Shown in pieces: positions 6,109 to 53,278 of a stretch of DNA of 64,000 bases (position 1 is its first letter; each line of letters opens with the position of its first letter). The position numbers and the translations under genes are program-made. The DNA is from Acidocella aquatica (lineage in GTDB: Bacteria > Pseudomonadota > Alphaproteobacteria > Acetobacterales > Acetobacteraceae). Under the pieces are notes generated by a model that saw nothing but the letters and a program-made list of their open reading frames with translations, was not told the origin of the DNA and ran no database searches. The stretch covers positions 124,001 through 188,000 of the forward strand of contig NZ_BSOS01000067.1 of the NCBI RefSeq assembly GCF_030160635.1, read 5' to 3'.

Positions 6109-6125
6109 GAATCTTTCCTCTTGTT

Positions 6126-6521
6126 TTATCCCATTGTCTCGGCCAGCGCCGCCTCGCATTGCCGGTCGATCTCACCCAGCTCGGCCAGGCTTTCCTCAAT
6201 GGCCGCGCGCTGTTCGCGCAACGCCGCCAGCCGCTGGCGCACCGCCTGCTGCAACTGCCTCGTCTGCACCCGGTGCGCCGGGTCCGCGTCATACAAATCC
6301 AAAAATTCCCTGATCTCGCGCAGCGAAAACCCAAGCCGCTTGCCCCGCAGAATCAACATCAGCCGCGCCCGGTCCCGCGCGCCATAAACCCGCGCGCTCC
6401 CCGCCCGCTGCGGCGTAATCAGCCCCTTATCCTCATAAAACCTGATAGCCCGCGCCGTCACCCCCAGCTCGCGCGCCAGCTGGCTCACCGAATACAAAAC
6501 CAGCACGGGCGCAGATTTCAC
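6126..6521 (-). CDS. MerR-family regulator of the beta-oxidation operon
   Basis: 131-residue DNA-binding protein. The N-terminal winged helix has the MerR pattern (about 8-45: YSVSQLARELGVTARAIRFY), followed by a second HTH segment and a long C-terminal dimerisation helix with Arg/Gln/Glu heptads. There is no Cys-rich metal-binding end, which fits the LiuR/PsrA-like regulators of acyl-CoA catabolism better than metal sensors. Translation starts at a GTG (6521) with GGGAGGG six bases upstream. It is the first gene of the operon that continues with thiolase, FadN-type enzyme and acyl-CoA dehydrogenase, so it most likely controls that operon and itself. The ligand is unknown. Confidence 0.85.
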   Translation of the reverse strand: MKSAPVLVLYSVSQLARELGVTARAIRFYEDKGLITPQRAGSARVYGARDRARLMLILRGKRLGFSLREIREFLDLYDADPAHRVQTRQLQQAVRQRLAALREQRAAIEESLAELGEIDRQCEAALAETMG

Positions 6522-6536
6522 GGCAACCCTCCCATT

Positions 6537-6560
6537 TTAACGCAAAGCGTCGTTGCTTAA
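6537..6560. promoter_or_regulatory. candidate MerR operator upstream of the beta-oxidation operon
   Basis: Imperfect inverted repeat TTAACGCAA-agcgtcg-TTGCTTAA, 16 bases upstream of the MerR start codon and inside the only non-coding gap available for the operon promoter. MerR proteins bind such dyads in the promoter spacer. One arm has one extra base, so this is a candidate only. Confidence 0.35.
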
Positions 6561-6650
6561 CGTATAGGGCATACCCCCCAACCCTGTCCAGAATTTTCCA
6601 CCAAACACCCCAGGGTTGCGTCCCCCGCCACTTCCTGGCTTCCTGCCAAC

Positions 6651-13213: not shown

Positions 13214-14212
13214 GTGAGCCAGGACGACGTAACGCTTGTAACGGGGGCCACCGGGTTCGTCGGCGCCGCCGTGGCCCGCGCGCTGCACCGCGCCGGCCAC
13301 AGGCTCCGCCTCACCACCCGCCCCGGCAGCGACCAACGCAACCTCTCCGGCCTGCCCGCCGAAATCGTCCCGCTGGACCTGGCAGACCCCGCCACCTTCG
13401 CCCCCGCGCTGCAAGGCTGCCGCCACCTCTTCCACGTCGCGGCCGACTACCGCCTCTGGGTGCCCGATGAAGCCGCCATGCGCCGCGTGAATATCGACGG
13501 CTCAGCCGCCCTTTTTCGCGCCGCCGCCGCCGCCGGGGTGGAGCGCAGCGTCTACACCAGCTCCGTCGCCGCCCTGGGCCTTAACCCCAGCGGCGCCCCA
13601 GCCGATGAGACCACCCCCATCAGGCCCGAACACCACCTCGGCGCCTATAAAAAGTCGAAATACGACGCCGAGCAGGCGGTCCGCGCCCTGGCCGCCGCCG
13701 GGCAAAACATCGTCATCGTCAACCCCTCCACCCCCATCGGCCCCGGCGACATCAAACCCACCCCCACCGGCCAGATGGTGCGCGACGCCGCCAACGGCCG
13801 CATGCCCGCCTATGTCGATACCGGGCTGAACATCGTGCATGTCGATGACGTGGCGCAGGGCCATCTGCTGGCGCTGGAAAAGGGCCGCAGCGGCGAGTCC
13901 TATATCCTCGGCGGCGAAAACCTGATGCTGCGCGAGCTGCTCGCCCTCATCGCCACCCAAACCGGCCGCAAACCCCCCACACTGCGCCTGCCCATCGCCC
14001 CGCTCATGCCCATCGCCTGGGTGATGGAGCAAATCGCCAACATCACCGGCAAAACCCCGCTCATGACCCCTGAGATCCTCGCCATGGCGCGCAAAAAGAT
14101 GTTCTTCACCTCCGCCAGGGCGCAGGCCACGCTCGGCTACCAGCCCCGCCCCGCCGCCGCCGCCGTGGCCGATGCGCTCACCTGGCTGCGCGCCGAGGGC
14201 CTGCTGGCATGA
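13214..14212 (+). CDS. hpnA: hopanoid-associated sugar epimerase HpnA
   Basis: 332-residue extended short-chain dehydrogenase. It has GATGFVG (11-17) for NAD(P), the catalytic YxxxK as Tyr145-Lys149 (YKKSK) and the HpnA-type NPSTPIGPGDIKPTPTG segment. HpnA is tied to side-chain modification of C35 hopanoids. It starts at GTG with GGAG seven bases before. First gene of the tightly packed hpnABCDE operon; the stop overlaps hpnB by four bases. Confidence 0.92.
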   Translation: MSQDDVTLVTGATGFVGAAVARALHRAGHRLRLTTRPGSDQRNLSGLPAEIVPLDLADPATFAPALQGCRHLFHVAADYRLWVPDEAAMRRVNIDGSAALFRAAAAAGVERSVYTSSVAALGLNPSGAPADETTPIRPEHHLGAYKKSKYDAEQAVRALAAAGQNIVIVNPSTPIGPGDIKPTPTGQMVRDAANGRMPAYVDTGLNIVHVDDVAQGHLLALEKGRSGESYILGGENLMLRELLALIATQTGRKPPTLRLPIAPLMPIAWVMEQIANITGKTPLMTPEILAMARKKMFFTSARAQATLGYQPRPAAAAVADALTWLRAEGLLA

Positions 14213-15309
14213 TCGCGACCCTCGCCCTGCTCATCTGGCTCTACCTGTTTTTCCTGCACGGAAAATTCTGGGCCTCCGCGCCCGAACTCCCCCCCGCCAC
14301 GCCGCCCGCGCTTCCTGATGCCGACATCATCATCCCCGCGCGCGACGAGGCGCAAACCATCGCCCCGGTCATCGCCTCGCTGCTGGCGCAGGATTACGCG
14401 GGCAAATTCCGCGTCATCCTGGTCGATGACAACTCCACCGACGGCACCGCCGCCCTGGCCGGCGTACACCCCAGGCTCACCATCATCACCGGCAAACCCA
14501 AGGCCCCCGGCTGGTCCGGCAAGCTCTGGGCGCTGCAACAGGGTGTCGAGGCCAGCACCGCGCCCATCCTGCTGTTCGCCGACGCCGACATCACCCACGA
14601 CCCCCGCCACCTCGCCTCGCTGGTCACCCGCCTGCTCACCCCGCGCGCCGACATGGTCTCCGAAATGGTGCGGCTCAACTGCACCTCGCTGCCCGAGCGT
14701 TTCCTAATTCCTGCTTTCGTGTATTTCTTCCAGATGCTCTATCCCTTCGCCCTGGTGAACGACCCCCTGAAATCCACCGCCGCCGCCGCCGGCGGCACGG
14801 TGCTGATCCGCCGTGAAGCCCTGGCGCGCATCGGCGGGCTGGAAAAAATCAAATCCACCCTCATCGACGATGTCTCCCTGGCGCGGGAAGTGAAAAAATC
14901 CGGCCCCATCTTCCTCGGCCACTCCGGCCTCGCCACCTCCATCCGCCCCTATCCGCAAATTTCCGATATCTGGAACATGATCACCCGCACCGCCTTCACC
15001 CAGCTCAACCATTCAGCGCTCATCCTGGCCGGCACGCTCATTGGCCTCACCCTGGTCTGGCTGGTGGCGCCCTATGAGGTCATCCACGGCCACGGCTGGC
15101 GCTTCCTGGCCGGTCTCGCCGCCTCGGCGCTGGCCGTGGCCAGCTATTTCCCCACGCTGAAGCGCTACAACCAGCCAAAACTCATGGCGCTGGCGCTGCC
15201 CTTCATCGCGCTGTTCTACATGGCCGCCACCATCGCCTCGGCGGTGAACCACTGGCGCGGCACCGGCGCCCAATGGAAAAGCCGCGCCTACGGGGGGCCT
15301 GGCGCATGA
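14209..15309 (+). CDS. hpnB: hopanoid biosynthesis glycosyltransferase HpnB
   Basis: 366-residue family 2 glycosyltransferase. An N-terminal membrane anchor (LALLIWLYLFFLH) is followed by the GT-A fold (DADIIIPARDEAQTI; VDDNSTDGT; FADADITHD as the metal-binding DxD region) and a C-terminal pair of membrane helices. HpnB proteins are thought to glycosylate hopanoid precursors or lipids at the membrane; the donor sugar is not established. Overlaps of four bases with hpnA and hpnC indicate coupled translation. Confidence 0.9.
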   Translation: MIATLALLIWLYLFFLHGKFWASAPELPPATPPALPDADIIIPARDEAQTIAPVIASLLAQDYAGKFRVILVDDNSTDGTAALAGVHPRLTIITGKPKAPGWSGKLWALQQGVEASTAPILLFADADITHDPRHLASLVTRLLTPRADMVSEMVRLNCTSLPERFLIPAFVYFFQMLYPFALVNDPLKSTAAAAGGTVLIRREALARIGGLEKIKSTLIDDVSLAREVKKSGPIFLGHSGLATSIRPYPQISDIWNMITRTAFTQLNHSALILAGTLIGLTLVWLVAPYEVIHGHGWRFLAGLAASALAVASYFPTLKRYNQPKLMALALPFIALFYMAATIASAVNHWRGTGAQWKSRAYGGPGA

Positions 15310-16175
15310 GCGCGAACGACAACGCCCAGGCCACTGCCGCCGTGCCTGAAACCAGCGTCGAAGCATGGTCCGGCAAGGACAAGGCGGACGAAAACTTCCC
15401 CGTCGGCTCGCTGCTCATCCGCCGGGAGCTGCGCGAGCACGTCCACGCCTATTACGCCTTCGCCCGCAATGCCGATGACATCGCCGATTCCGCCACGCTC
15501 TCGCCCGCCGATAAAATCGCCCGGCTGAACATCATGGAAGAGGTTCTAACCGGCGCCAGCGCCGAGGGCGCCCCCAGCGCCGCCCGGCTGCGCGCCTCGC
15601 TGGCGCAATCGGGCGTCACCTCCATCCACGCGCGCGAGCTGCTGGTCGCCTTCCGCCAGGACGCGGTGCAAAACCGCTACGCCGACTGGGCCGCCCTGAT
15701 GGATTATTGCCGCTACTCCGCCGCCCCGGTCGGCCGCTACGTGCTCGACCTCCACGGCGAGGACAAAGCCACCTGGCCCGCCTCCGATGCACTCTGCGCC
15801 TCGCTCCAGGTGCTCAACCACCTGCAGGATTGCGCCGGAGACCTGCGCAGCCTCGACCGCTGCTACATCCCGCAGGACATGCTGGCAAAAGCCGGCTGCA
15901 AAACCGACGATCTGGCCCGCGGCGAGACCACACCGGCCCTGCGCGCCGTGTTCGACCAGATGCTCAACCTCACCGAGGCGCTGAACGAAGCCGCCGCCGC
16001 GCTGCCCGGCCTGGTGCGCGCGCGCCGCCTGCGGGTGGAAACCGCCATCATCACCCGCCTCGCCCGGCGCCTCACCGCGCGGCTGCGCCATGGCGACCCG
16101 CTGGCCAGCCGGGTGAAGCTCAGCAAGGTTGATTTCATCACCGCCGCCACCCTCTCGCTGGGCCGTTTCGCATGA
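15306..16175 (+). CDS. hpnC: hydroxysqualene synthase HpnC
   Basis: 289-residue squalene/phytoene-synthase-fold enzyme. In the three-enzyme route to squalene it converts presqualene diphosphate to hydroxysqualene. The two acidic motifs are seen as NADDIAD (about 56-62) and HLQDCAGDLRSLDR (about 172-185). The frame is open 11 codons upstream, but the ATG at 15306 forms an ATGA overlap with hpnB and is the likely start. It overlaps hpnD by four bases. Confidence 0.92.
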   Translation: MSANDNAQATAAVPETSVEAWSGKDKADENFPVGSLLIRRELREHVHAYYAFARNADDIADSATLSPADKIARLNIMEEVLTGASAEGAPSAARLRASLAQSGVTSIHARELLVAFRQDAVQNRYADWAALMDYCRYSAAPVGRYVLDLHGEDKATWPASDALCASLQVLNHLQDCAGDLRSLDRCYIPQDMLAKAGCKTDDLARGETTPALRAVFDQMLNLTEALNEAAAALPGLVRARRLRVETAIITRLARRLTARLRHGDPLASRVKLSKVDFITAATLSLGRFA

Positions 16176-17017
16176 GCAAACCCGCCGCCGACACCGCCTA
16201 TGTCACCGCGCTGGTGAAAGCCTCCGGCACCTCCTTCTACCACGGCATGAAAATCCTCCCGCCCCCCCGGCGCGATGCGATGTACGCCATCTATGCCTTC
16301 TGCCGCGTGGTCGACGATATCGCCGACGATGACGATGTTCCCTTCGCGCAGAAACGCGCCGCGCTGGATGCCTGGCGCGAACGCATCGCCGCCCTCTACA
16401 ACGGCGAGACCGACGGCCCGATCACCCGCGCCCTGCTCGATGCCGTACGGAAATTTGATTTGCAGCCCTCGGATTTCCGCGACATCGTCGATGGGATGGA
16501 GATGGATGCAGGAGATCCCATCGTGGCGCCAACACTTTCAGCTCTGGACCTGTATTGTGACCGCGTGGCCTCCGCCGTGGGGCGGCTTTCCGTGCATGTC
16601 TTCGGCGACTCCTCGCCCGCCGCGCGTGATGTCGCCCACGCCCTCGGGCGCGGCCTCCAGCTCACCAACATCCTGCGCGATGTCGGCGAGGACGCAGCCC
16701 GCGGCCGTTTATATCTTCCCAGGGAATTCCTTGAGGAAGCTGGAATCACCCCAGAGCCGCAAGCCGCCCTCGCCTCGCCCGCCCTGCCCGTGGTCTGCGC
16801 CCGGCTCGCCACCATGGCGGAACAAAAATTCACCGAGGCGGAGGCCGCCATGGCGCGCTGCAACCCGCGGGCCATGCGCCCGGCGCGGCTGATGCAAGCC
16901 AGCTACCGCCCGCTGCTCGCCATCCTGCGGCGCCAGAACTTCAATTATTCCGTTCCGCGCGTAAAACTTCCCGCCTGGCGCAAGCTCGTGCTCGCCGCGC
17001 GCCTGCTCGCCGCGTGA
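16172..17017 (+). CDS. hpnD: presqualene diphosphate synthase HpnD
   Basis: 281-residue squalene/phytoene-synthase family protein that joins two farnesyl diphosphates to presqualene diphosphate. Acidic motifs VVDDIADDDD (about 47-56) and LRDVGEDAARGRLYLP (about 168-183) bind Mg-diphosphate. The ATG overlaps the hpnC stop and the end is eight bases before hpnE. Confidence 0.93.
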   Translation: MSKPAADTAYVTALVKASGTSFYHGMKILPPPRRDAMYAIYAFCRVVDDIADDDDVPFAQKRAALDAWRERIAALYNGETDGPITRALLDAVRKFDLQPSDFRDIVDGMEMDAGDPIVAPTLSALDLYCDRVASAVGRLSVHVFGDSSPAARDVAHALGRGLQLTNILRDVGEDAARGRLYLPREFLEEAGITPEPQAALASPALPVVCARLATMAEQKFTEAEAAMARCNPRAMRPARLMQASYRPLLAILRRQNFNYSVPRVKLPAWRKLVLAARLLAA

Positions 17018-17024
17018 GGGCGCC

Positions 17025-18215
17025 ATGAGCGTGCATGTCATCGGCGCCGGGGTCGCCGGCCTCGCCGCCGCCTGCCAGCTCACCGAAGCGGGGCACCACG
17101 TCATCCTGTTCGAAGCCGCGAAAACCGCCGGCGGGCGCGCGCGCTCGCATTATGACAATGTGCTGGGCTGCCGCATCGACAATGGCAACCACCTGCTGCT
17201 GTCAGGCAACATCTCAACACTCTCCTATCTGCACCGGATCGGCGCCAAACGTTCCCTCACCGGCCCGGCCGGGCCGGTATTCCCGTTTCATGACCTGCGC
17301 ACCGGAGAGGACTGGACGCTGCGGCTCAACCAGGGGAGCTTTCCCTGGTGGTTATTTTCCCGCAGACACCGCGTGCCGGGCACAAGGCTGCACCATTATC
17401 TGGGGCTGCTGAAAATCCGCAAGGCAAAACCCGCCGATCTCGTCGCCCCGCTACTGGCCGGAACCGGGCCGCTCTATACCCAGCTGCTCGAGCTGCTGGC
17501 CGTCTCCGCGCTCAACACCAGCCCCCACGTGGCCGCCGCCGCCGCCCTGCGCAGCGTCTTCGAGGAAACCCTGGAGCTGGGCGGCTACGCGACCATCCCC
17601 CGCTATGCGCGCATCGGTCTTTCCGAAACCTTCGTCGACCCGGCGCTGGACTGGCTGCGCCAGCACGGCGCGGACATCCGCCTGGGCGAGCGGGTCACCG
17701 AAATCTCCCCCGGCCAGGCCACCGTGCTCGCGGTGCCCCCCTGGGCCGCGGCCGAACTGGTGCCCGGCCTCCTCGTCCCAAACGAGTTCGAGTCAATCTA
17801 CAATCTGCACTTCAAATACGCCCTGCCCCCCGGCGAGGCCGGCTTCTGGGGCTTCATCGGCGGCATGACAGAATGGGTATTCGCCCACAGCAACGTGCTC
17901 TCCGTCACCATCTCCGCCGCCAGCCGCTACGCGGACATGAGCCCGGAGGACATCGCCGCCAAAGTCTGGAGCGAAATCGCCAGCGCCTTCTCACTTTCGC
18001 CCGAAATCCCGATTTACCGCGCCATCTGGGAAAAACGCGCAACCATGCTGGCCACCCCGGCACAAATGGCCCGCCGCCCAAAAACCAGAACCGCCAACCC
18101 AAACCTCATGCTCGCCGGCGACTGGACCGACACCGGCCTGCCCGCCACCATCGAAGGCGCCATCCGCTCCGGCAACGCCGCCGCGCTGGCGCTCATGTCG
18201 AACTTTAACAGTTAA
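17025..18215 (+). CDS. hpnE: hydroxysqualene dehydroxylase HpnE
   Basis: 396-residue FAD-dependent amine-oxidase/phytoene-desaturase-type enzyme that reduces hydroxysqualene to squalene. It shows the N-terminal dinucleotide fold VIGAGVAGLAAA (about 5-16), GGRARSHYD after it, and the C-terminal FAD-contacting LAGDWTDTGLPATIEGA. Last gene of hpnABCDE; its product squalene is the substrate of the cyclase encoded at 51.4-53.3 kb. Confidence 0.92.
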   Translation: MSVHVIGAGVAGLAAACQLTEAGHHVILFEAAKTAGGRARSHYDNVLGCRIDNGNHLLLSGNISTLSYLHRIGAKRSLTGPAGPVFPFHDLRTGEDWTLRLNQGSFPWWLFSRRHRVPGTRLHHYLGLLKIRKAKPADLVAPLLAGTGPLYTQLLELLAVSALNTSPHVAAAAALRSVFEETLELGGYATIPRYARIGLSETFVDPALDWLRQHGADIRLGERVTEISPGQATVLAVPPWAAAELVPGLLVPNEFESIYNLHFKYALPPGEAGFWGFIGGMTEWVFAHSNVLSVTISAASRYADMSPEDIAAKVWSEIASAFSLSPEIPIYRAIWEKRATMLATPAQMARRPKTRTANPNLMLAGDWTDTGLPATIEGAIRSGNAAALALMSNFNS

Positions 18216-30260: not shown

Positions 30261-31151
30261 CTACCTCGCGTAAGCCCCCACCTGCGCCAACACATTCCGC
30301 GCCTGTTTCAAATGCGGAATATCCAGCATCTTCCCATCCAGCCCCACGGTCCCGGTCCCCGGCGCTGCGTCAAACGCCGCCACCACCCGCCGCGCGTGCT
30401 CCACTTCCGCCGCCGACGGCATAAAGCTCTCGTTAATCCCCGCCACCTGTGCAGGATGAATCGCAATCCGCCCGGTAAACCCTTCCGCCCGCGCCGCCCG
30501 GCATGAGGCCCTCAAGCCCTCGTCATCCTTAAAATCCACATACAGCGTATCAATCGCCTGCACCCCCGCCGCATGCGCCGCCAACAGCGTCAGCGAGCGC
30601 ACCAGCCTATAGGTCAGCGCCCACTGCCCGCTACCATCCAAATTCGTGCTGGCCCCCACAGCGGCTGACAAATCCTCCGCCCCCCACGTAATCCCCAGCA
30701 GCCGCGCCAGCCCAGCCCCCGCATAATCACCCAGCCGGAACGGCGCCACGGCGGTCTCCGTCGCCACCGGCAAAATCTTCACCGAGCCCAGCGCCACACC
30801 CCCCTGAACCTCCAGCGCATCCAAAAAATGCGAGAGTTTCAATACATCTTCCGGACCGTTGGCTTTCGGCAACATCAGCCCATCCGGCCCCGCCGCCACA
30901 ATCGCCGCCAAATCCGTCAGCGCCAAATCCGTATCCAGAGGGTTAATCCGCACCCAAAGCTCAGCCCCCCGCTTCCCCTTCGGCCGCTCCCGCAAAAACG
31001 CCGGAATCAACTCCCGCGCCAGCGGTTTATTCGCCGGCGCAACAGAATCCTCCAAATCCAAAATCAACGCATCCGCGCCCGATGCATCCGCCTTGGCCAG
31101 CTTCTTTTCAGAATCCCCCGGAATAAACAGGAACGACCGAATATTCGCCAT
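30261..31151 (-). CDS. CitE-like HpcH/HpaI-family CoA-ester lyase
   Basis: 296-residue TIM-barrel lyase of the malyl/citramalyl/beta-methylmalyl-CoA lyase type, which splits a 3-hydroxy-acyl-CoA into acetyl-CoA and a 2-oxo acid. Visible ligands include LDLEDSVAP (about 31-39), WVRINPLDTD, GAEDLSAAVG and YVDFKDDEGL. Its ATG overlaps the TGA of the MaoC gene (TGATG). A MaoC-CitE pair is also the arrangement of itaconyl-CoA hydratase and citramalyl-CoA lyase. Its last codons are duplicated 210 bases downstream. Confidence 0.88.
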   Translation of the reverse strand: MANIRSFLFIPGDSEKKLAKADASGADALILDLEDSVAPANKPLARELIPAFLRERPKGKRGAELWVRINPLDTDLALTDLAAIVAAGPDGLMLPKANGPEDVLKLSHFLDALEVQGGVALGSVKILPVATETAVAPFRLGDYAGAGLARLLGITWGAEDLSAAVGASTNLDGSGQWALTYRLVRSLTLLAAHAAGVQAIDTLYVDFKDDEGLRASCRAARAEGFTGRIAIHPAQVAGINESFMPSAAEVEHARRVVAAFDAAPGTGTVGLDGKMLDIPHLKQARNVLAQVGAYAR

Positions 31152-31603
31152 CACACGGGCTTCTTCTTCTGCAAGCCCGAACGCTTGCACGACGCCACCA
31201 GCTCATCCTTCTGGTTATAAGCTTTGTGCAAAAACGTAACAATTCCCTGGTCCGGGCGAGACTTGCTCTCCCGCAACTCAATCACCTCGGTCACCACATG
31301 CACCGTGTCGCCATGGAACAACGGATGCGGAAACCGCACCTCATCCCAGCCCAGATTCGCAACCGCCGTCCCCAGCGTGGTGTCCCCCACCGAGATCCCG
31401 ACCATCAGCCCCAGCGTAAACGCCGAGTTCACCAGGCGCTGCCCAAAGGGCGTGCCCTTCATATACTCCTCATCCAGGTGCAGCAGCGCTGGATTATGCG
31501 TCATCGCGGTAAACAGCACATTGTCCGTTTCCGTCACGGTGCGGCGGATCGGGTGGTGAAACACCTGCCCGACCGTCAATTCATCAAACCAAAGTCCCGC
31601 CAT
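31151..31603 (-). CDS. MaoC-family acyl-CoA (de)hydratase
   Basis: 150-residue hot-dog-fold protein. The active-site loop reads MTHNPALLHLDEEYMKGTPFG, keeping the His and following Asp but with Asn in the place of the Asp of the classical GDxNPxH hydratase motif, as I recall for the MaoC branch that travels with CitE-like lyases. Likely hydrates an unsaturated (possibly C5-dicarboxylic) acyl-CoA for the downstream CitE-like lyase. Its ATG overlaps the thiolase TAA (TAATG). Confidence 0.85.
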   Translation of the reverse strand: MAGLWFDELTVGQVFHHPIRRTVTETDNVLFTAMTHNPALLHLDEEYMKGTPFGQRLVNSAFTLGLMVGISVGDTTLGTAVANLGWDEVRFPHPLFHGDTVHVVTEVIELRESKSRPDQGIVTFLHKAYNQKDELVASCKRSGLQKKKPV

Positions 31604-32799
31604 TAGTGCAGCCCCAAAATAGAGATACCGGCAATACCCAAATAGGGCACGCCGCCCAGATTATGCGTCAACCCAATCGAGGGCGCCTTCAACTGCCGCG
31701 CGCCCGCGCGCCCGAGCAGCTGCAAATACACCTCATAAGCCATCCGCAGCCCCGAAGCCCCGATCGGATGCCCAAAACACTTCAACCCGCCATCAATCTG
31801 GCACGGAATCTTGCCCGTGGCATCATAAACCCCGTCCAGATAATCGCGCACCGCGTGCCCATCCTCGGAGAGAAACAAATCCTCCATTGTCACCAGCTCG
31901 GTGATCGAGAAACAATCATGCACCTCGGTCAGGCTGATCTGCTCACGCGGAGTGCTGATCCCCGCCTCCTTATACGCCCGCGCCGCCGCATTGCGCGTAT
32001 TGGGCACATAGGAGCCATCCCACGTATTCATCGCGGTCTCCTGCCCCGAGCTGATCGAGAGCTGCAACGCCTTCACCGTCACCAGCTCCTTCTTGCCCAG
32101 CGCGCGCGCAATCTCCGGCGTCGTCACAATCGCGCAAGCTGACCCATCAGAAACACCCGAGCAATCAAACAACCCCAGCGGATCAGAAATCATCGGCGCA
32201 TTCATAATGGTTTCCATTGAAACCGCCTTCTGGAAATGCGCCTTCGGGCTATGCACACCGTTCTGGTGGCTCTTCCATGAAACATGCGCGATCGCCCGCT
32301 TCAGCTCCTCTTTCGAAATCCCATAGCGCGCGCGATACCCATCGGCCAGCTGCGCGAACCCTGCCGGCGCCGAGGCCATCGGCATCCACATATCATTGAA
32401 CGTGCCCTTAAAAGGCGGCGGCAGCCCGCCATACCCCGTATCCTTCAGCTTCTCGGCCCCAATTGCCAGCGCAATATCCACCGCCCCCGAGGCCACCGCA
32501 TAAGCCGCCCCGCGCAGCGCCTCGGTCCCGGTCGCGCACATGTTTTCCACCCGCGTGAAGGGAATCCCGTTCAACCGCAGCGCCGTCGAAGCCGGGATCG
32601 CCGAGTTGCCGATATTCACCGCATCCATGCACGAGCCCAGCCAAGCCGCGTCAATCTGCTTGCGCTCAATCCCCGCGTCCGCCAGCGCCTCCTCGAACGA
32701 CTCCGCCATCAGCTCCTGGCTTCCCGCATCCCAGCGCTCGCCAAACTTCGAGCAACCCATGCCCAGAATCGCAACCTTATCCTTGATACCTGTTGCCAT
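31603..32799 (-). CDS. SCP-x-type thiolase (acetyl-CoA acetyltransferase/lipid-transfer protein family)
   Basis: 398-residue thiolase-fold protein of the SCP2/SCP-x branch. Catalytic Cys88 is present (VENMCATGTEAL), His344 lies in CFGHPIGASG, and the SCP2-type EVHDCFSITE segment is present near 294. Because the nucleophilic Cys is kept, thiolysis is more likely than the retro-aldol reaction of Cys-less Ltp2 homologues. It follows the HMG-CoA-synthase-like/DUF35 fusion by 11 bases. Thiolases of this type commonly need a DUF35 partner, and here that domain is in the neighbouring protein. Confidence 0.88.
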   Translation of the reverse strand: MATGIKDKVAILGMGCSKFGERWDAGSQELMAESFEEALADAGIERKQIDAAWLGSCMDAVNIGNSAIPASTALRLNGIPFTRVENMCATGTEALRGAAYAVASGAVDIALAIGAEKLKDTGYGGLPPPFKGTFNDMWMPMASAPAGFAQLADGYRARYGISKEELKRAIAHVSWKSHQNGVHSPKAHFQKAVSMETIMNAPMISDPLGLFDCSGVSDGSACAIVTTPEIARALGKKELVTVKALQLSISSGQETAMNTWDGSYVPNTRNAAARAYKEAGISTPREQISLTEVHDCFSITELVTMEDLFLSEDGHAVRDYLDGVYDATGKIPCQIDGGLKCFGHPIGASGLRMAYEVYLQLLGRAGARQLKAPSIGLTHNLGGVPYLGIAGISILGLH

Positions 32800-32810: not shown

Positions 32811-34250
32811 TTAGCCCGCCGCAATCGGCGTGGTTTTCCAGAAATAGCGATTATACCCGCGCGCCCGGTCGCGTTCCTTAATCCGGTAAACCATGCGCAG
32901 CTTCTCACCGCGCTCAATCCCCTTCGGCCCGACATCAACCATTTCCATCAACAGCCGCGCGCCATTATCAAACTGCACAAACCCGCAATACAGCGGCGGC
33001 GCCGGATAATACGAGAGCCAATCCGCCGTCGAGGTCAGCACCTGTGCCGGCTCATCAGCCAGCGGCACCTGCCTGAACTGCTTGCGCGGCGCCTGGCACT
33101 TCACACAGAACTGAAACTGCGGAAACTGGATGGTATTACACGCCGCGCACTGGCCCGCATTAAACGCTTCCAGCTGGAAGGCCGAGCGATACTGCTCGGT
33201 CAACTGCGTCTTGCCGCTGCGCTCGGCGCGCATGCCCCATTCCACATCGATGCCTTCGGCAAACGAGAGGAACCGCAGATAACTATCCGTCGCCACCGCA
33301 TCCGCCACCGAACCCGAAACGCCACGGCGCTTAGGCAACGCGGTAATCGCCTCGGTCACTTCAAAAATCAGCGCATCCGCACCCTGGCCAAAACCCACAA
33401 CCAATATCTTCTCGCCCGGCTTGGCCGTCTCCAGCGCCAGCGCCAGTTGCAACAGCGCATGCGCCGCCCCGGCATACCCCACGCCGTTCTCCAGGCCCGA
33501 GACCACGCTCCCGCCAAACTTCACACTCTTGGCCACCGCATCCGCCACCGCGCGCAACTGCGACGGCATGGCGAAATACGCCACCCCATCAATGCCAATC
33601 CCCGCATCCGCCAGCGCCGCCGAAATTGCCGCCGGCGCCAGCTTGGCGTATCCCTCATCGCGCACCCAGCGCTCTTCCCAGGCATATTCATACTTCTGCC
33701 CGGTCGCGCGGAAATGGTCGACAAAACTATCCGTCACGCTCGCCTTGCCAACCAGCCTGGCGATCACGCCCTCAGCCCCCAAGGTGAACGCCGCCGCCCC
33801 CGCGCCATAGCTGATCTCCTGCACGCTGGCGGGCTTGCCCACCGGCGCGTCGGAGGCGATGAACAACGCCGCCTCCCCGCCCTTCAACGCCTGCAACAGC
33901 GCCGAAGTCCCGGCCCGCTGCGAATACCCGGCATCACTGGCGGCAATCCCGGTGGGGGCGGAAATTGCACCCGCGACAATCGAGGCATTGAGCAAATCCG
34001 CATAGGGCAACGTCGTCGAGGCCAAATAAATCGCCTTCAGCGCGTCGGCGGAACTCCCGGCCAGCGCATCGCGCGCCGCCTCAACCGCCATGGTGACCGC
34101 ATCCTCATCCCAGGAGCAAAACGCCCGGCTCCCCTTGGCCTGGCCCTTCAACCCCGGCGCCATCCATTTATGCGCCTCGGCGATAATCCCCCGCTCAATG
34201 CGCAACCGCGGCACATAGGCGCCGTACCCCGTAATTCCAAAATCACTCAT
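32811..34250 (-). CDS. HMG-CoA-synthase-like protein fused to DUF35 (zinc ribbon/OB fold), catalytic residues apparently lost
   Basis: 479 residues (ATG 34250; ATG 34259 also possible). Residues about 1-350 have the thiolase-fold pattern of archaeal-type HMG-CoA synthase (GITGYGAYVPRLRI; KPGEKILVVGFGQGADALIF). Residues about 355-479 are DUF35: zinc-ribbon Cys368, 371, 382, 385 (CAAC and CVKC) and an OB fold. By eye, the catalytic positions differ: the Glu of SES-PY is Thr79 (STTLPY), the Cys of the CKAGTAAL segment is Gln111 (QRAGTSAL), and the His of FHQP is Ala227 (FAMP). It is therefore probably not a synthase. In archaea, DUF35 tethers thiolase to HMG-CoA synthase; here the fused pair sits beside a thiolase, suggesting a scaffold or substrate-binding partner. 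Confidence 0.82.
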   Translation of the reverse strand: MSDFGITGYGAYVPRLRIERGIIAEAHKWMAPGLKGQAKGSRAFCSWDEDAVTMAVEAARDALAGSSADALKAIYLASTTLPYADLLNASIVAGAISAPTGIAASDAGYSQRAGTSALLQALKGGEAALFIASDAPVGKPASVQEISYGAGAAAFTLGAEGVIARLVGKASVTDSFVDHFRATGQKYEYAWEERWVRDEGYAKLAPAAISAALADAGIGIDGVAYFAMPSQLRAVADAVAKSVKFGGSVVSGLENGVGYAGAAHALLQLALALETAKPGEKILVVGFGQGADALIFEVTEAITALPKRRGVSGSVADAVATDSYLRFLSFAEGIDVEWGMRAERSGKTQLTEQYRSAFQLEAFNAGQCAACNTIQFPQFQFCVKCQAPRKQFRQVPLADEPAQVLTSTADWLSYYPAPPLYCGFVQFDNGARLLMEMVDVGPKGIERGEKLRMVYRIKERDRARGYNRYFWKTTPIAAG

Positions 34251-34266
34251 GGCCGTCATTCCACTT

Positions 34267-35433
34267 TCAATAAGATTTAGGAAGGTCCAGCACCTTCTCC
34301 GCGATAAAGCTCAAAATAAGCTGCTCGGTAATCGGCGCGATCCGCAACAAAATAGACTCTCGGAACAACCGCTCCACCTGATACTCGGTGGAATACCCCA
34401 TGCCGCCATGCGTCATCACCGCGCGCGTGCAGGCATCAAACGCCGCCCGCCCGCCCAAAAACTTGCCCGCATTGGCTTCCGCGCCGCAAGGCATGTTGTT
34501 GTCATACAAATTCGCCGCCCGCATGATCATCCAGAACGCCGACTCCAGATACGTCCAGTTTTCCGCCAGCGGATGCTGAATCCCCTGGTTCTGCCCAATC
34601 AAACGCCCAAACACCTTGCGCTCCCTGGCATACTGCGCCGCCCGCGCCAGCGCCCCGCGCCCCAGCCCCACGGCCTCCACGCCCACCAAAATCCGTTCCG
34701 GATTCAAACTGTGCAGAATATAGTGGAACCCCTTGCCTTCCTCGCCAATCCGGTCCGAATCCGGAATAAAATAATCATCGATGAACGTCGCGTTCGAATC
34801 CACCGCATTGCGCCCCATCTTGGGGATGCGCCGCACCTCGATCTTGCTCTTGTCGAGGTCGGTGTAGAACAGCGTCATGCCATCGGTCGGCTTGCGGCAA
34901 TCCTCTTTCAGCGTGGTGCGCGTCAGCAAAATAATCTTGTTCGCCACCTGCCCTGATGACGTCCATATCTTGCGCCCCGTCACCCGGTATCCGCCCGGCA
35001 CCTTGGTCGCAAAGGTCTTGATGCTCGTCGTATCCAACCCGGCATCAGGCTCCGTCACACCAAAACACGCGCGGTCGGTACCCTGGATCAACGGCGTCAG
35101 CATCCGCTCCTTCTGCTCGGGCGTGCCAAACACCACCACCGCGTGCGGCCCGAACAAATTCAAATGCAACGCGCTCGCCGCCGAATACCCGCCCGCGCTC
35201 GATGACACCTCATGCATCATGATCGCCGCCTCGGTCACACCCAGGTTCGCGCCGCCATATTCCTCCGGCATGGTGATGCCGAGCCAGCCGTTATCGGCCA
35301 TCGCCCGATGAAACTCGAACGGAAAGCGCTTCTCCGTGTCGCAAGCTGACCAGTATTTGTCATCGAACCCATCGCAAACCTGCTTCACGCCCTCGCGAAT
35401 GGCTTCCTGTTCTTTCGTAAAACGTATGTCCAC
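34267..35433 (-). CDS. acyl-CoA dehydrogenase, short form, first gene of the acyl-CoA operon
   Basis: 388 residues with the standard FAD/substrate motifs (CFGVTEPDAG about 123-132, WTSSG about 157-161). The usual C-terminal base motif YEGT is absent (here LRIAPITEQL), while NPERIL places Glu246 where isovaleryl-CoA dehydrogenase has its base, so a branched-chain-type active site is likely. It ends 16 bases before the HMG-CoA-synthase-like gene. Together the five genes could oxidise, hydrate and cleave a branched or dicarboxylic acyl-CoA; the substrate is unknown. Confidence 0.88.
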   Translation of the reverse strand: MDIRFTKEQEAIREGVKQVCDGFDDKYWSACDTEKRFPFEFHRAMADNGWLGITMPEEYGGANLGVTEAAIMMHEVSSSAGGYSAASALHLNLFGPHAVVVFGTPEQKERMLTPLIQGTDRACFGVTEPDAGLDTTSIKTFATKVPGGYRVTGRKIWTSSGQVANKIILLTRTTLKEDCRKPTDGMTLFYTDLDKSKIEVRRIPKMGRNAVDSNATFIDDYFIPDSDRIGEEGKGFHYILHSLNPERILVGVEAVGLGRGALARAAQYARERKVFGRLIGQNQGIQHPLAENWTYLESAFWMIMRAANLYDNNMPCGAEANAGKFLGGRAAFDACTRAVMTHGGMGYSTEYQVERLFRESILLRIAPITEQLILSFIAEKVLDLPKSY

Positions 35434-37256: not shown

Positions 37257-38132
37257 TCAACCGTTCAGCAGCGCCAGCAACGAGTCCATCTGGTCCAGAT
37301 TGGCATAATGCAGCGTAATCGTCCCGCTCCGCCCATTAAACCCGATCTTCACCTTCACCCCCAGCCGCTCGCTCAAATTCTCCGCCAGCGCCTCAACCTC
37401 ACCATCCGGCCGGCGCTCCAGCTGCGGCTTGATCAACGCCCGCCCCTTAATCGAGCGCCCCAAATTATTCACAAACTCTTCCGCCTGCCGGACCGAAAGC
37501 TCCTTATCCAAAACCACCTTCGCCCCCTTCAGCGGGTCCGGGTGGTTCAACAACGCGCGCGCATGTCCCATTGAGAGGCTGCCATCACGCACCATGCCCA
37601 AAACCGGCAGCGGCAGCTTCAGCACCCGCAACGTATTATTGATATGCCCGCGGGATTTTCCCACAGCATCCCCCAGCGCTTCCTGGCTCAGGCGGAACTC
37701 CGTAATCAACCGCTGATACCCCTCAGCCTCTTCCACCGGGTTCAAATCTTCGCGCTGCAAATTCTCCACCAGCCCGGCGGCCATCGCATCCGCATCGCTC
37801 AACTCACGCACCAAAACCGGCACCTCATGCAGGCTCACCTTCTGCGCCGCCCGCCACCGCCGTTCACCCGCGATAATCTGATACTGCCCCTCATGCCCCG
37901 GCTTCGGCCGCACCAGCAGCGGCTGCAAAATCCCCCGCTGCTTTATCGAATCCGCCAACTCCTGCAGCGCCGTCTCGTCCATATCCTGGCGCGGCTGATA
38001 CGGACTCGGCTCCAGCAGATCCACCGGCAGCGCCTGCACCCCCGGCGCGTTCACGCTCGCCGGCACCGCCGCATCCCCCAACAGCGCCGCCAGGCCCCGC
38101 CCCAACCGTTTTGGCTGTTCTTTCACACTCAT
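37257..38132 (-). CDS. parB: chromosome-partitioning protein ParB
   Basis: 291-residue CTPase/DNA-binding protein that loads at parS and spreads. It shows the N-terminal ParA-contact segment RLGRGLAALLG (about 9-19), the ParB/CTP motif GERRWRAAQ (about 90-98), ENLQREDLNPVEEAEGY, an HTH (LSQEALGDAVGKSRGHINNTLRVL) and the C-terminal dimer domain. The ATG overlaps the parA stop by four bases. Confidence 0.96.
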   Translation of the reverse strand: MSVKEQPKRLGRGLAALLGDAAVPASVNAPGVQALPVDLLEPSPYQPRQDMDETALQELADSIKQRGILQPLLVRPKPGHEGQYQIIAGERRWRAAQKVSLHEVPVLVRELSDADAMAAGLVENLQREDLNPVEEAEGYQRLITEFRLSQEALGDAVGKSRGHINNTLRVLKLPLPVLGMVRDGSLSMGHARALLNHPDPLKGAKVVLDKELSVRQAEEFVNNLGRSIKGRALIKPQLERRPDGEVEALAENLSERLGVKVKIGFNGRSGTITLHYANLDQMDSLLALLNG

Positions 38133-38935
38133 ACCGAAGCTCCCTTTCTCGTCCGCGTCCGCCTCAAAAACTCCGCCGCCAGCGCCAGATAAGCCTGCGC
38201 CCCAACCGAGCGGAAATCATACAACAACACCGGCACCCCATGGCTCGGAGCCTCCGTAATCCTCACATTGCGCGGGATCGCGGTGTCGAACACCACGGCG
38301 CCAAAATGCCCGCGCACATCATTGCTCACCTGCTCCGAGAGGTTGTTGCGCTTGTCGGTCATGGTCAGCACAATCCCCTCCACTTCCAGTTTCGGATTCA
38401 GGCTGCGCTTCACCCGGTCCACGGTCCGCATCAACTGCGAAATCCCCTCCAGCGCAAAAAACTCCGCCTGCAACGGCACCAGCACCGAGTCCGCCGCCAC
38501 CAGCGCGTTCAGCGTCAACAGCCCCAACCCCGGCGGGCAGTCGATAAACACAGTGTCAACCGCGCAGTCTCCCGCCAGCGCATCACGCAGCAAAAACTCC
38601 CGGCGCTCCGTCTGGCTGAACTCCAGGTCAGCGCCGATCAAATCTTCCACCGATGGCACAATGGTCAAATTCTCAACCCCGCTTTCCAGCGTGAGCGCCC
38701 CGAGCGCCGCATCACCAGCCAACAGCGCATAGCTGCCGCCTTTTCGGATGGCGCGGTCAATCCCTAATCCGGTACTGGCATTGCCCTGCGGATCAATATC
38801 CACCAGCAACACCTTCTTGCCCCCCACCGCAAGTGCTGCGGCAAGGTTGATGGCGGTGGTGGTTTTCCCCACCCCGCCTTTCTGGTTTACAACGGCGATG
38901 ATCCTAGGGCGCGGCGGCTTTACTTGTTCCAACAT
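38129..38935 (-). CDS. parA: chromosome-partitioning ATPase ParA
   Basis: 268-residue Walker-type ATPase that segregates ParB-parS complexes. The deviant Walker A is KGGVGKTT (about 19-26); Walker A' is LLVDIDPQGNAST and Walker B is VFIDCPPGLG. The start overlaps the end of rsmG by 32 bases, and the stop overlaps parB, giving the usual rsmG-parA-parB order. Confidence 0.96.
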   Translation of the reverse strand: MLEQVKPPRPRIIAVVNQKGGVGKTTTAINLAAALAVGGKKVLLVDIDPQGNASTGLGIDRAIRKGGSYALLAGDAALGALTLESGVENLTIVPSVEDLIGADLEFSQTERREFLLRDALAGDCAVDTVFIDCPPGLGLLTLNALVAADSVLVPLQAEFFALEGISQLMRTVDRVKRSLNPKLEVEGIVLTMTDKRNNLSEQVSNDVRGHFGAVVFDTAIPRNVRITEAPSHGVPVLLYDFRSVGAQAYLALAAEFLRRTRTRKGASV

Positions 38936-39491
38936 GGCGGATCTGGCTCACTTTCAGGATGCACGCTTCTGCATCTAGGCTCGACGCAAAGCGCTCGGCC
39001 TCCATGTGCCAGACCGCCCTTGCGGCCGTCAATTCAACTTCGGCGCCACGCCCCTTTGGGAACAGACAAACGCCATTTTCCGCCAAATGCGGGGCCGCCA
39101 GCCCCAATAATTTGTCCAGCGGCGCCAGCGCCCGGGCTGTCACCAGCGGCGCTGGCACCGTCTTCGCCGCCTCGATGCGCGTGTTCAACACCCTCACCGG
39201 CGCCCCCAAAATCCGCGCCGCCTCCATCAAAAACGCCGCCTTGCGGGTGTCGGACTCAATCAGCGTAAATTCGATCCCCGTCGCAACGGCCAGCACCATG
39301 CCGGGGAACCCGGCGCCGGAGCCCAGATCGATCGCCCGCGTCACCCCAGCCGGAATATGCGCCACCAGCTCCAAGGAGTCCCGCACATGCCGCTCCCAGA
39401 TATGCGGCAGATCCCCCTTGCTCACCAGATTGATCCGCGGCGACCATTTCGCCACAAGCGCCGCAAACTGGCGCAACCGCTCCTCGTTCAT
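38904..39491 (-). CDS. rsmG: 16S rRNA (guanine-527-N7) methyltransferase RsmG
   Basis: 195-residue SAM-dependent methyltransferase modifying G527 of 16S rRNA. Visible are RINLVSKGD (about 19-27) and the SAM-binding loop [14 protein letters not shown] (about 55-68), then [11 protein letters not shown]. It overlaps mnmG by four bases and parA by 32 bases. Confidence 0.94.
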
Positions 39492-41200
39492 GCCGCCCGC
39501 CGGGCTTTTTTCAACGCGCCAAAAATCGCCCCCAGCGCCGCCGGCGTCATCCCCTCAATCCGCCCCGCCGCGCTCAAGTTTTGCGGGCAAACCCGCTCCA
39601 GCTTTTCGCGCAACTCGTTGGAGAGCCCGCCAACCGCGCCATAATCAAACCCTTCGGGGATCACCACCGCCTCATCGCGCGCGCGCGCCTTAATCTCGTT
39701 TTCCTGCCGGTTGAGATACCCGGCATAATGCAAATCCGCCCGCAAAATCTCCGCCCCGCGTGAATGCCCCTCCGGCCTGCCCGCATACCCCGCGATCTCC
39801 GCCTCCAGCGCTGCAAACGCCCCCGCCCGCTCAGCCCCCACGCAACCCCAGCCCAGCCCCAGCGGTGTGAGCCGCAGCTCCGCATTATCCGCCCGCAACA
39901 ACAGCCGGTATTCAGCCCGCGAGGTGAACATGCGATACGGCTCCGTCACCCCTTGCGTCACCAAATCATCAATCAACACCCCGATATACGCCTGCGCCCG
40001 CCCCAGGCTGACCGGCGCACAACCACCGGCGGCGCGCGCGGCGTTCAGCCCCGCCATCAGCCCCTGCGCGCCGGCTTCCTCATACCCGGTGGTGCCGTTG
40101 ATCTGCCCGGCCAGATACAGCCCCGGGAGCGCCTTCACCTGCAACCCATGGTCCAGCGCGCGCGGGTCCACATAATCATACTCCACCGCATAACCAGGCC
40201 GCAGGATTTTGGCGTGCTCCAGCCCTGGGATGGAATGCACCAGCAGCTCCTGCACATCCTCGGGCAGCGAGGTGGAAATCCCGTTGGGATACACGGTGTC
40301 ATCATCCAGCCCCTCCAGCTCCAGAAAAATCTGATGCCCCGGCTTCTCCGCAAACCGCACCACCTTATCCTCGATGGAGGGGCAATAGCGCGGCCCCTTC
40401 CCCGCGATATTCCCGCCATACACCGCCGATTTATGGATGTTTTCGCGGATAATCGCATGCGTCAGCTCGGTCGTCCCGGTAATCCGGCAGGAGATCTGCG
40501 GGTTGGTCACGCGCTCGGTCAGGCTGGAGAAGCACTCCGGCGGGTCCTCGCCCTTGTCCTCAGCCAGCCCGTCCCAGTCGATGCTCTTCTTGTCCAGCCG
40601 TGGCGGTGTCCCGGTTTTCAGCCGCCCCAGCGGCAGGTTCAGGCCCAGTAGCGCCTCGGCCAGCCCCACCGCCGGGGCGTCGCCAATCCGCCCGCCCGGG
40701 GCCATCACATTGCCAAAATGCAGCACCCCGCGCAAAAAAGTCCCGGTGGTGAGCACCGCCGCCGCGCAGGAAAACACCCGCCCATCCGCCGTGGTCACGC
40801 CGCTCAACCGGCCCGAGGCATCGCGCAGCAGCCCCGCCGCCTCGCCCTCAACAATGGTCAAATTCTCCTGCGCCGCCAGCAGCGCCTGGATGGCGTTGCG
40901 ATACAGCTTGCGGTCCGCCTGCGCCCGCGGCCCGCGCACCGCCGGCCCCTTGGTGCGGTTGAGCAGCTTGAAATGGATGCACGCCGCATCCGCCGCCCTT
41001 CCCATCAAGCCATCCAGCGCATCAATCTCGCGCACCAGATGCCCCTTGCCGATCCCCCCGATCGCCGGATTGCACGACATTTCCCCCAGCCGGTCCGCCC
41101 GGTGGGTAAGCAACAACGTGCAGGCCCCCACCCGCGCAGACGCCGCCGCCGCCTCCGCGCCCGCATGCCCGCCGCCAATGATAATCACATCGTATTTCAT
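39488..41200 (-). CDS. mnmG: tRNA uridine-34 carboxymethylaminomethyl synthase subunit MnmG
   Basis: 570-residue FAD enzyme that works with MnmE to modify wobble uridine. It shows [10 protein letters not shown] (about 9-18), [17 protein letters not shown], the folate/FAD region TGTFLRG and [17 protein letters not shown]. It is about 50 residues shorter than E. coli MnmG; the missing part lies in the C-terminal helical linker (after about residue 450), while the terminal [13 protein letters not shown] segment for MnmE contact is kept. Part of mnmG-rsmG-parA-parB. Confidence 0.95.
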
Positions 41201-51364: not shown

Positions 51365-53278
51365 TTAGAAGCCGAATTTAACCCGCCGGTCGTTGGCGGC
51401 GAGCAGGCTCCGGTAGCGGCTGAGCGCCAGCAGCGGGAAGAAGCGCGGGTAGCCGTGGTATTTGAGGTAGAACACCCGCGGGAAGCCGACGGCGTTGTAG
51501 GCGCGCTCGGTCCAGCTGCCTTGCGCGTCCTGCGCACCCTGGAGGTAGGCGGCCCCTTTTTTCACCGCGTCATGGTCCGCGAGGCCCGCAGCCATGAGGC
51601 CGAGCATCGCCCAGGCGGTCTGGCTGGGCAGGCTTTGTTCGGCTTCGCCGTGGAATTCGCCGGGGGGCGCGCCCGCATAAGTCTCGCAATCCTCGCCCCA
51701 GCCGCCGTCGGCGCGCTGCTTGGCGATGAGCCAGGTGGCGGCGCGGGTGATGGCCGGGTCGTCATGCGCCACACCGGCGGCGTTGAGGGCGCAGAGCACC
51801 GACCAGGTGCCGTAGATGTAATTGGTGCCCCAGCGGCCGAACCAGGAGCCATCAGGGCATTGGGTCTCGCGCAGATATTGCACGCCGCGCGCGATGGCGG
51901 GCTGGTCCTCGGGGTGGCCAAGCTGGGCGAGGAAGGAGATGCAGCGCGCGGTGACATCCTCGGTCGGCGGGTCGAGCAGCGCGCCGTGGTCCGCGAAGGG
52001 GATGTGATTGAGGTATTGGCGGTCGTTGTTGATGTCGAAGGCGCCCCAGGCGCCGTTGGTGGACTGCATGCCGATGATCCATTCGCGCGCGCGGGCGATG
52101 GCCCCGGCGTATTGCGGCGCGCCGGTGCGGTGCATCAGCATGGCGACCACGGCGGTGTCGTCAACATCAGGGTAGTGGGCGTTGTTGTATTGAAAGGCCC
52201 AGCCGCCGGGGCGGGTGCCGGGGGTGTTGTCGGCCCAGTCGCCAACGACATCGAGGATTTGCCGCGGCGCCAGCCAGTCACACGCGGCGGCGGCGGGGCC
52301 GGGGGCGCCGGCTTCCAGCAGGGCGTGGCCGGCCAGCCCCGTGTCCCACACCGGGGAGAGGCAGGGCTGGCAATAGGCTTCGTCATCCTTGATGACGAGG
52401 AGCTTTTGCACCGAGCCGAAGGCGATATCGAAATGTTCCCGGTCGCCGTAATAGTCGAACATCATCGCGGCGTTGGCCATGGCGGGGTAGATGGCGCCCA
52501 GCCCGTCCTCGCCGTTGAGGCGCTCAATGGTCCAGGCGATGGCCTTGGCAATGGCGCGCTCGCGGTATTTTTTAGGGAACCAGGGTTCGGCGGCGCGCAA
52601 CACGGTGTCGAGATGTTTGAAGAAGGGGCCCCAGGCGGATTTATAGGGGCCGCGGATCCAGTCGCGCACCTGCGCCGGGGGCGTGTGGAACAGCTCGTCG
52701 ATGCGGATGTTGCGCGGGTTGCGGGCGAGGGGTTTTTTGGCGGCGAGGACCATCAGCGGCGTCATCACCGTGCGCGACCAGTAGGAGACCTTGCGCATGT
52801 TGATGGGGAACCAGCCGGGCATCAGCATCAGCTCGATGGGCACGACGGGGCTGGCATCCCACGGGACGGCGCCGAAGAGGGCCATCTGGATGCGGGTGAA
52901 CACGTTGGTGCGCGCGGCGCCGCCATGCGCGAGGATGGCGTTTCTGGCGCGGATCATGTGCGGGGCCTCGGGGGAGTCACCGATGGCCTTCAGCGCGAAA
53001 TAGGCTTTCACGCTGGCTGAAAGGTCAAGCTTGCCGCCGTGAAACAGGGGCCAGCCGCCGGGGTTGGTGGTGTGATCGCCCTGGATGCGGCGCAGGTAGA
53101 CGCCGATTTTATCCTGCAGATCAGGGGTGATGCGGTCGAGGTAATGCTCCAGCAGCACATATTCGGCCGGGATGGTGGCATCGGCCTCCAGCTCGTAGAG
53201 AAAATGCCCGTCCGGGCGCTGCTCGCCGCGCAGGGAGGCGCTGGCAAGCTCAATGGCGGTGTCGAGTTTGGCGTTCAT
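51365..53278 (-). CDS. shc: squalene-hopene cyclase
   Basis: 637-residue class II triterpene cyclase that turns squalene into hopene/hopanol at the inner membrane. The protonating DxDD motif is DVDDTA (370-375). QW-type repeats are seen (GGWPLFHGG, GAWGAFDINN, GSWFGRWG, GGWGED, GSWTERAYN). It uses the squalene made by HpnCDE, yet is encoded about 33 kb away, on the other side of the presumed origin. It starts 45 bases after the GT39 gene. Confidence 0.97.
   Translation of the reverse strand: MNAKLDTAIELASASLRGEQRPDGHFLYELEADATIPAEYVLLEHYLDRITPDLQDKIGVYLRRIQGDHTTNPGGWPLFHGGKLDLSASVKAYFALKAIGDSPEAPHMIRARNAILAHGGAARTNVFTRIQMALFGAVPWDASPVVPIELMLMPGWFPINMRKVSYWSRTVMTPLMVLAAKKPLARNPRNIRIDELFHTPPAQVRDWIRGPYKSAWGPFFKHLDTVLRAAEPWFPKKYRERAIAKAIAWTIERLNGEDGLGAIYPAMANAAMMFDYYGDREHFDIAFGSVQKLLVIKDDEAYCQPCLSPVWDTGLAGHALLEAGAPGPAAAACDWLAPRQILDVVGDWADNTPGTRPGGWAFQYNNAHYPDVDDTAVVAMLMHRTGAPQYAGAIARAREWIIGMQSTNGAWGAFDINNDRQYLNHIPFADHGALLDPPTEDVTARCISFLAQLGHPEDQPAIARGVQYLRETQCPDGSWFGRWGTNYIYGTWSVLCALNAAGVAHDDPAITRAATWLIAKQRADGGWGEDCETYAGAPPGEFHGEAEQSLPSQTAWAMLGLMAAGLADHDAVKKGAAYLQGAQDAQGSWTERAYNAVGFPRVFYLKYHGYPRFFPLLALSRYRSLLAANDRRVKFGF

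Follow-up and report, generated by a model that had tools for sequence, protein, structure and literature searches.

The window analysed in this study, a stretch of 64,000 nucleotides from Acidocella aquatica (contig NZ_BSOS01000067.1, positions 124,001 to 188,000), encodes a fused protein that joins a degenerate 3-hydroxy-3-methylglutaryl-coenzyme A (HMG-CoA) synthase-like domain to a DUF35 domain, next to a gene for a thiolase. This protein is likely to be a non-catalytic cap or scaffold partner of a retro-Claisen thiolase and not an HMG-CoA synthase, because the catalytic Glu and Cys are present in none of the 89 fused proteins compared, the catalytic set of the thiolase is complete in all 84 sequences scored, the pairing of the two genes is nearly constant, and PhlA, a subunit of a known acyltransferase, provides a precedent. 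With regard to the gene itself, an earlier note on this DNA had placed it at 32811..34250. The open reading frame is real and encodes 482 amino acids, but it lies on the minus strand and runs from 34259 to 32811, and a plus-strand reading of 32811..34250 does not give the protein; the residue numbers used at that time are 3 too low because they were counted from the second ATG (34250). The two genes concerned are the following:

32811..34259, minus strand: fused protein, consisting of a catalytically degenerate HMG-CoA-synthase-like domain (residues ~5-338) and a DUF35 zinc ribbon/OB fold (~345-482)
31603..32799, minus strand: SCP2/archaeal-type thiolase, the predicted catalytic partner (PRK06157, 657.6 bits vs a cut-off of 403)

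In a sequence alignment to the HMG-CoA synthase of 6ESQ, the positions of the catalytic Glu, Cys and His are occupied by Thr82, Gln114 and Ala230 or Pro232, the His position being alignable to either of the last two residues, neither of which is His. Three intact HMG-CoA synthases included as controls (6ESQ, locus L087 and Methylobacterium nodulans) show E, C and H at these positions. The replacements formerly numbered Thr79, Gln111 and Ala227 thus hold, and the alignment places no Cys, Glu or His at the catalytic positions of the window protein, whose predicted structure has the fold of an HMG-CoA synthase. Residues were counted in 89 fused proteins, the window protein included, and repeat copies of a place were left out of the residue, adjacency and identity tallies. 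The Glu column holds T in 85 proteins, S in 3 and C in 1; the Cys column holds Q in 47, L in 29, R in 5, T in 3, M in 2, and I, A or a gap in 1 each; and the His column holds P in 73, A in 6, H in 4, S in 2, Q in 2, and V or Y in 1 each, the four keepers of His (L072, L073, L090 and L123) forming one subclade. Internal stops are absent from all 89, and every one covers at least 80% of residues 400-478 of the window protein. Since the loss of the residues is family-wide, it is due neither to chance nor to a local lesion. Two alphaproteobacterial loci (L083 and L084) carry the two domains as separate adjoining frames that are equally degenerate (T, P and no His), while in PhlA, CsPhlA, MucA and a Priestia homologue the Glu column reads C, C, C and S, the Cys column G, G, E and G, and the His column Q in all four.

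A real HMG-CoA synthase with shifted motifs was also considered and rejected: within two residues of the respective column, Glu occurs in 0/89 proteins, Cys in four (L113, L123, L090 and L071) and His in five (L082, L072, L123, L090 and L073), and none of these Cys or His cases is found among the near relatives of the window protein. Recent decay or sequencing error was likewise discarded, given that the frame is open and that relatives at 89-92% identity share the same residue state. The nearest relatives found are an Acetobacteraceae metagenome-assembled genome (92% identity), a Proteobacteria metagenome-assembled genome (89%) and Acidocella (76%). In a maximum-likelihood tree of 51 rows, all inactive proteins associated with DUF35 fall together in a clade of 48 rows (ultrafast bootstrap 92), in which four Phl/Muc-type rows branch first and the other 44 are held together with a value of 96, and the active archaeal synthase falls outside. 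Such a topology, in which one sequence stands for the active archaeal synthases, hints at one ancient loss of the catalytic residues.

Both parts of the protein were assigned by sequence and by predicted structure, which group residues 5-338 with PhlA and the archaeal HMG-CoA synthase and assign the C-terminal end to DUF35. The protein has the HMG-CoA synthase fold of the archaeal type, and it scores below the curated HMG-CoA synthase cut-offs (NF003274/TIGR00748; 164.4 vs 244 and 117.9 vs 353.35 bits). The best profile matches of the HMG-CoA-synthase-like part are PhlA and CsPhlA, and by fold it comes closest to subunits of DUF35/thiolase complexes with three components. The C-terminal part (32811..33254, minus strand), modelled alone, has a predicted fold that agrees with its profile matches to solved DUF35 chains, these matches being the DUF35 protein of 6ESQ (1.6e-12), PhlB (2.8e-10), the DUF35 of ChsH2 and the PhlB-family subunit of MucABC. 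A zinc ribbon and an OB fold are both present, with Cys371, Cys374, Cys385 and Cys388 as the four zinc-ribbon Cys, and the ribbon proposed before under the numbers Cys368, 371, 382 and 385 is in this way borne out by profile and fold. Among 24 family members, PF01796 was found in all 24 and PF12172 in 21 (E<=1); in the fused protein of the window, PF01796 reaches merely E 0.0038, below the Pfam cut-off, and PF12172 gives no match.

The neighbouring thiolase has the nucleophilic Cys and the catalytic His residues of the SCP2/archaeal type. Cys88, the retention of which had been claimed correctly, is identical, together with His294, Cys296, His344 and Asn380, in 84/84 sequences scored, the window included. 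Scoring was applied to those 84 of 89 rows that have a stretch of at least 330 aa, leaving out L081, L115, L042, L044 and L045, and in three of these five the fetched stretch ends within the thiolase. Its best solved match is 7YVY (182.1 bits), followed by the thiolase of 6ESQ (175.6), with lower scores for the BbsAB thiolase (127.1) and PhlC (53.3), so that by score it is nearer to the archaeal acetoacetyl-CoA thiolase than to PhlC; against the archaeal acetoacetyl-CoA thiolase family it scores 252 bits, below the cut-off of 600.

A thiolase match near the fused gene and on the same strand was found in 89 of the 90 fetched loci, with the distance taken between alignment ends: directly downstream (<=200 bp) in 80, at 1.2-2.0 kb downstream in 6, directly upstream in 3, and none in 1. 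This count takes in the loci that reach 80 bits or more as synthase-like (L050, L053, L054, L060 and L087 fall below 80), and the 90 loci represent 88 distinct places (L027=L023, L089=L045). Since it was the synthase-like query that retrieved these loci, the pairing with a thiolase was not selected for. Furthermore, pairwise identities of the thiolase and its partner correlate (r 0.84 over 3486 locus pairs, uncorrected for shared ancestry, which contributes to it), and the partner diverges faster than the thiolase in 99.6% of these pairs, the median identities being 42% vs 63%. At locus L115 (13451-14640), on a plasmid of Paraburkholderia sp. PGU19, the match to the thiolase next to the fused gene is split into two pieces; no gene is listed at this thiolase, in a collection whose gene table has gaps.

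Among known systems, PhlACB, the multicomponent acyltransferase, or Friedel-Crafts acylase, of Pseudomonas protegens, comes closest. According to PMC6392133, PhlA is without the Cys (Gly115) and the Glu (Cys83), PhlB acts as a bridge, residues of PhlC alone take part in the acyl transfer, and the arrangement is very similar to that of the archaeal complex. Gly115 and Cys83 fall into the same alignment columns as the Cys and Glu lost here. In common with PhlACB, CsATase (9SKH) and MucABC (9VBO), the system described here has an HMG-CoA-synthase-like subunit without Glu, Cys and His (His as judged by sequence), a DUF35 part as the predicted bridge, and a catalytically intact thiolase with Cys88. 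PhlACB is encoded by three separate genes in a biosynthetic context, whereas here the equivalents of PhlA and PhlB form one chain in a beta-oxidation-type operon. In PMC2954200, phlABC is described as combining a DUF35 protein with two members of the thiolase superfamily, one active and one inactive, and fusions of DUF35 to members of this superfamily are already reported, so that the ideas of a dead partner and of such fusions both have forerunners; PMC12329534 presents DUF35 as the scaffold in these complexes. In the archaeal acetoacetyl-CoA thiolase/DUF35/HMG-CoA synthase complex (6ESQ), by contrast, the synthase is active and keeps Glu82, Cys114 and the His of FHQP, and the components are three chains. 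Benzoylsuccinyl-CoA thiolase BbsAB (7PXP) also combines a thiolase with DUF35, for the catabolic cleavage of a beta-ketoacyl-CoA as its PDB name indicates, and is not known to have an HMG-CoA-synthase-like subunit. In the steroid side-chain aldolases Ltp2-ChsH2(DUF35) and Sal-Shy(DUF35), a DUF35 domain likewise completes a thiolase-fold enzyme, but it resides on a hydratase chain rather than on an HMG-CoA-synthase-like chain, and the chemistry is that of an aldolase. The family is a fused, catabolic and widespread form of the PhlABC/archaeal design and not a new kind of system. As for the earlier suggestion of a pseudoenzyme scaffold, it is well supported by the family-wide loss of Glu and Cys, the conserved thiolase partner and the precedent of PhlA (PMC6392133), while the complex itself is a predicted one.

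We infer complex formation, the direction of the reaction and the roles of individual thiolase residues as follows. The HMG-CoA-synthase-like domain would supply a structural dimer with a cavity, and the DUF35 domain would clamp this dimer onto the neighbouring thiolase. The two domains would thus have the roles that PhlA and PhlB have towards PhlC, in a complex that may resemble Phl(A2C2)2B4 except that A and B are joined in a single chain. The chemistry would be done by the thiolase, through a CoA-dependent retro-Claisen cleavage of a beta-ketoacyl-CoA in which Cys88 would accept the acyl group and His294 and His344 would presumably serve as the base and in the oxyanion hole. The dead domain and DUF35 could shape the acyl/CoA tunnel and would be needed for assembly.

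Several observations weigh against this model. All four zinc-ribbon Cys are present in 75/89 fused proteins (the columns were counted twice, in a row set with two duplicate pairs and then in the 89), so the zinc site is not universal; the proteins without the full set cluster in few subclades, and the site therefore seems dispensable in part of the family. In the HMG-CoA-synthase-like domain, conservation is 95% or higher at Asp181, Glu195, Arg197 and Arg200, and the Thr at the Glu position is nearly fixed, which makes a positive role of the domain, even a new activity, possible. Moreover, the reaction of PhlABC is a CoA-independent acyl transfer, and likeness to PhlABC is thus no proof of thiolysis. 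Finally, at L081 (fused gene at 5299-6723, minus strand) no recognisable thiolase was found within the 12 kb fetched; the fused protein of this locus might pair with a thiolase that is encoded in another part of the genome. In a subclade formed by L071, L072, L073, L090 and L123, the operon is the same and the thiolase is 68-71% and the partner 35-38% identical to those of the window; all five are without the zinc-ribbon Cys, and four have His at the third column. For L071, L072, L073 and L090 the partner identities lie at 35-37%.

That the domain has kept or gained another catalytic activity, for example via Thr82 or the Asp181/Glu195-Arg197-Arg200 stretch, is improbable. The conservation of these residues would fit such an activity, and the authors of PMC7793797 suggested one such as thiolase for a probable relative, but the old site has acquired no fixed new nucleophile, the fused chain evolves faster than its thiolase partner, and the equivalent subunit of PhlABC gives no residue to the acyl-transfer step (PMC6392133). 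We also consider it unlikely that the complex runs synthetically in the manner of PhlABC or of the archaeal thiolase/HMG-CoA synthase, catalysing a Claisen condensation or a C-acylation. PhlABC is biosynthetic and MucABC apparently so, and the 252 bits of the thiolase, although short of the family cut-off, point in the same direction; the operon companions (dehydrogenase, hydratase and CitE-type lyase), on the other hand, look degradative, and homologues occur in catabolic clusters, including an estrogen-type cluster and phenylacetate genes. A Gln-for-Cys decarboxylase of the KSQ kind, the alternative offered in the earlier note, in which the domain would decarboxylate a malonyl-type thioester with Gln114 stabilising the enolate, is very improbable, since Gln114, despite being kept in 25 of a hand-picked set of 26 (the window protein and its near relatives) and despite a FabH C112Q structure among the fold matches, has Gln counterparts in just 47/89 fused proteins, Glu is absent in 89/89 and His in 85/89, the window protein has the Gln with neither partner residue whereas KSQ domains generally keep their His residues, and genes for carrier proteins or malonyl-CoA account for 0/5 in the operon.

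With the fused protein taken as the non-catalytic partner of a cleaving thiolase, its surroundings can be considered. Five genes follow one another in a tight run on one strand, in the order acyl-CoA dehydrogenase, fused protein, thiolase, MaoC hydratase and CitE-type lyase. Those in addition to the pair are:

34267..35433, minus strand: acyl-CoA dehydrogenase, first gene of the apparent operon
31151..31603, minus strand: MaoC-type enoyl-CoA hydratase, with the beta-methylmalyl-CoA dehydratase 8HGN as best solved match
30261..31190, minus strand: CitE-type CoA-ester lyase (CLYBL / malyl-CoA / RipC-like)

The listed start of the CitE-type lyase (31190) is probably too early; an in-frame ATG is present at 31151. 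A promoter and terminator scan of the region gave no excess over shuffles (3 vs 2.1 and 8 vs 6.4). The MaoC and CitE-type neighbours hint that the substrate in this operon might be a branched or carboxylated beta-ketoacyl-CoA, and the product might then pass to the acyl-CoA dehydrogenase, the MaoC hydratase and the CitE-type lyase in a methylsuccinyl/mesaconyl- or itaconyl/citramalyl-like tail. In the 47 loci that span 8 kb or more and score above 130 bits for the synthase, MaoC occurs in 22, CitE in 22, the same acyl-CoA dehydrogenase in 20, and all four partners, counting the thiolase, in 16. The thiolase is found in 45 of them by a length and identity limit, the misses being L081 and L115, where it is in two pieces. 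A substrate fixed by the operon was rejected, as MaoC, CitE and the dehydrogenase are each found in under half of the 47 loci; it follows from these counts that the substrate module varies and that the pair of fused protein and thiolase is the constant part. Beside the operon, at 37257-41200 of the window, a putative MnmG/RsmG/ParA/ParB-type cluster was noted by eye, and open reading frames at 13214-18215 and 51365-53278 resemble, also by eye, hopanoid/squalene biosynthesis genes, one of them being squalene-hopene-cyclase-like. The genome assembly has a size of 4.03 Mb.

The family is present in 66 of 385 genomes drawn from the class of the window (E<=1e-40), two of these (G210 and G378) having it unfused, and in 47 of 296 genomes from the phylum to which the actinobacterial locus L022 belongs (E<=1e-30), while plasmids add betaproteobacteria, further alphaproteobacteria, Rhodococcus, Streptomyces and haloarchaea. 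Its taxa comprise Alpha-, Beta- and Gammaproteobacteria, Desulfobacteraceae, Actinomycetota and haloarchaea. The neighbourhoods opened are mostly catabolic, with acyl-CoA dehydrogenases, hydratases, subunits of ring-hydroxylating dioxygenases, CoA transferases and phenylacetate genes. Two haloarchaeal plasmids (L127:4820-7443 and L128:4832-7437) carry a thiolase and a fused synthase-like/DUF35 gene annotated as 'zinc ribbon domain-containing protein', and in Halorubrum the thiolase and the fused gene lie beside the phenylacetate genes paaK and paaI.

In the edc estrogen cluster of Novosphingobium/Caenibius tardaugens, the thiolase EGO55_13550 adjoins an 'HMG-CoA synthase', EGO55_13555, to which, as reported in PMC7793797, no step could be assigned. 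A matching order is found on plasmid p3 of Novosphingobium sp. ES2-1, namely acyl-CoA dehydrogenase, short-chain dehydrogenase/reductase, fused protein, thiolase, two hydratases, lipid-transfer protein, OB-fold protein and P450. The ES2-1 protein is a member of the fused family in which T, L and S replace the Glu, Cys and His, and it is ~30% identical to the window protein. EGO55_13555 probably belongs to the same family, by an orthology drawn from gene order alone.

Searches of open-licence PMC papers, partly aimed elsewhere, returned no paper on the fused family as such, and its genes are annotated as HMG-CoA synthase, 3-oxoacyl-ACP (acyl carrier protein) synthase III C-terminal domain protein, OB-fold protein or hypothetical protein. 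As a consequence of the HMG-CoA-synthase-type annotations, pathway reconstructions may assign a reaction that these proteins cannot catalyse. We tentatively put forward the wider possibility that the family represents a large, little-studied class of two-gene retro-Claisen thiolases, in which the dead HMG-CoA synthase-DUF35 chain could form an active-site roof for bulky, ring-derived or branched beta-ketoacyl-CoAs, and that this could explain the unassigned 'HMG-CoA synthase' of estrogen catabolism. The practical consequence is a bearing on an open step in estrogen degradation, and the fused protein, read as the partner of the thiolase, adds a clear case of an enzyme fold retained as an assembly part.
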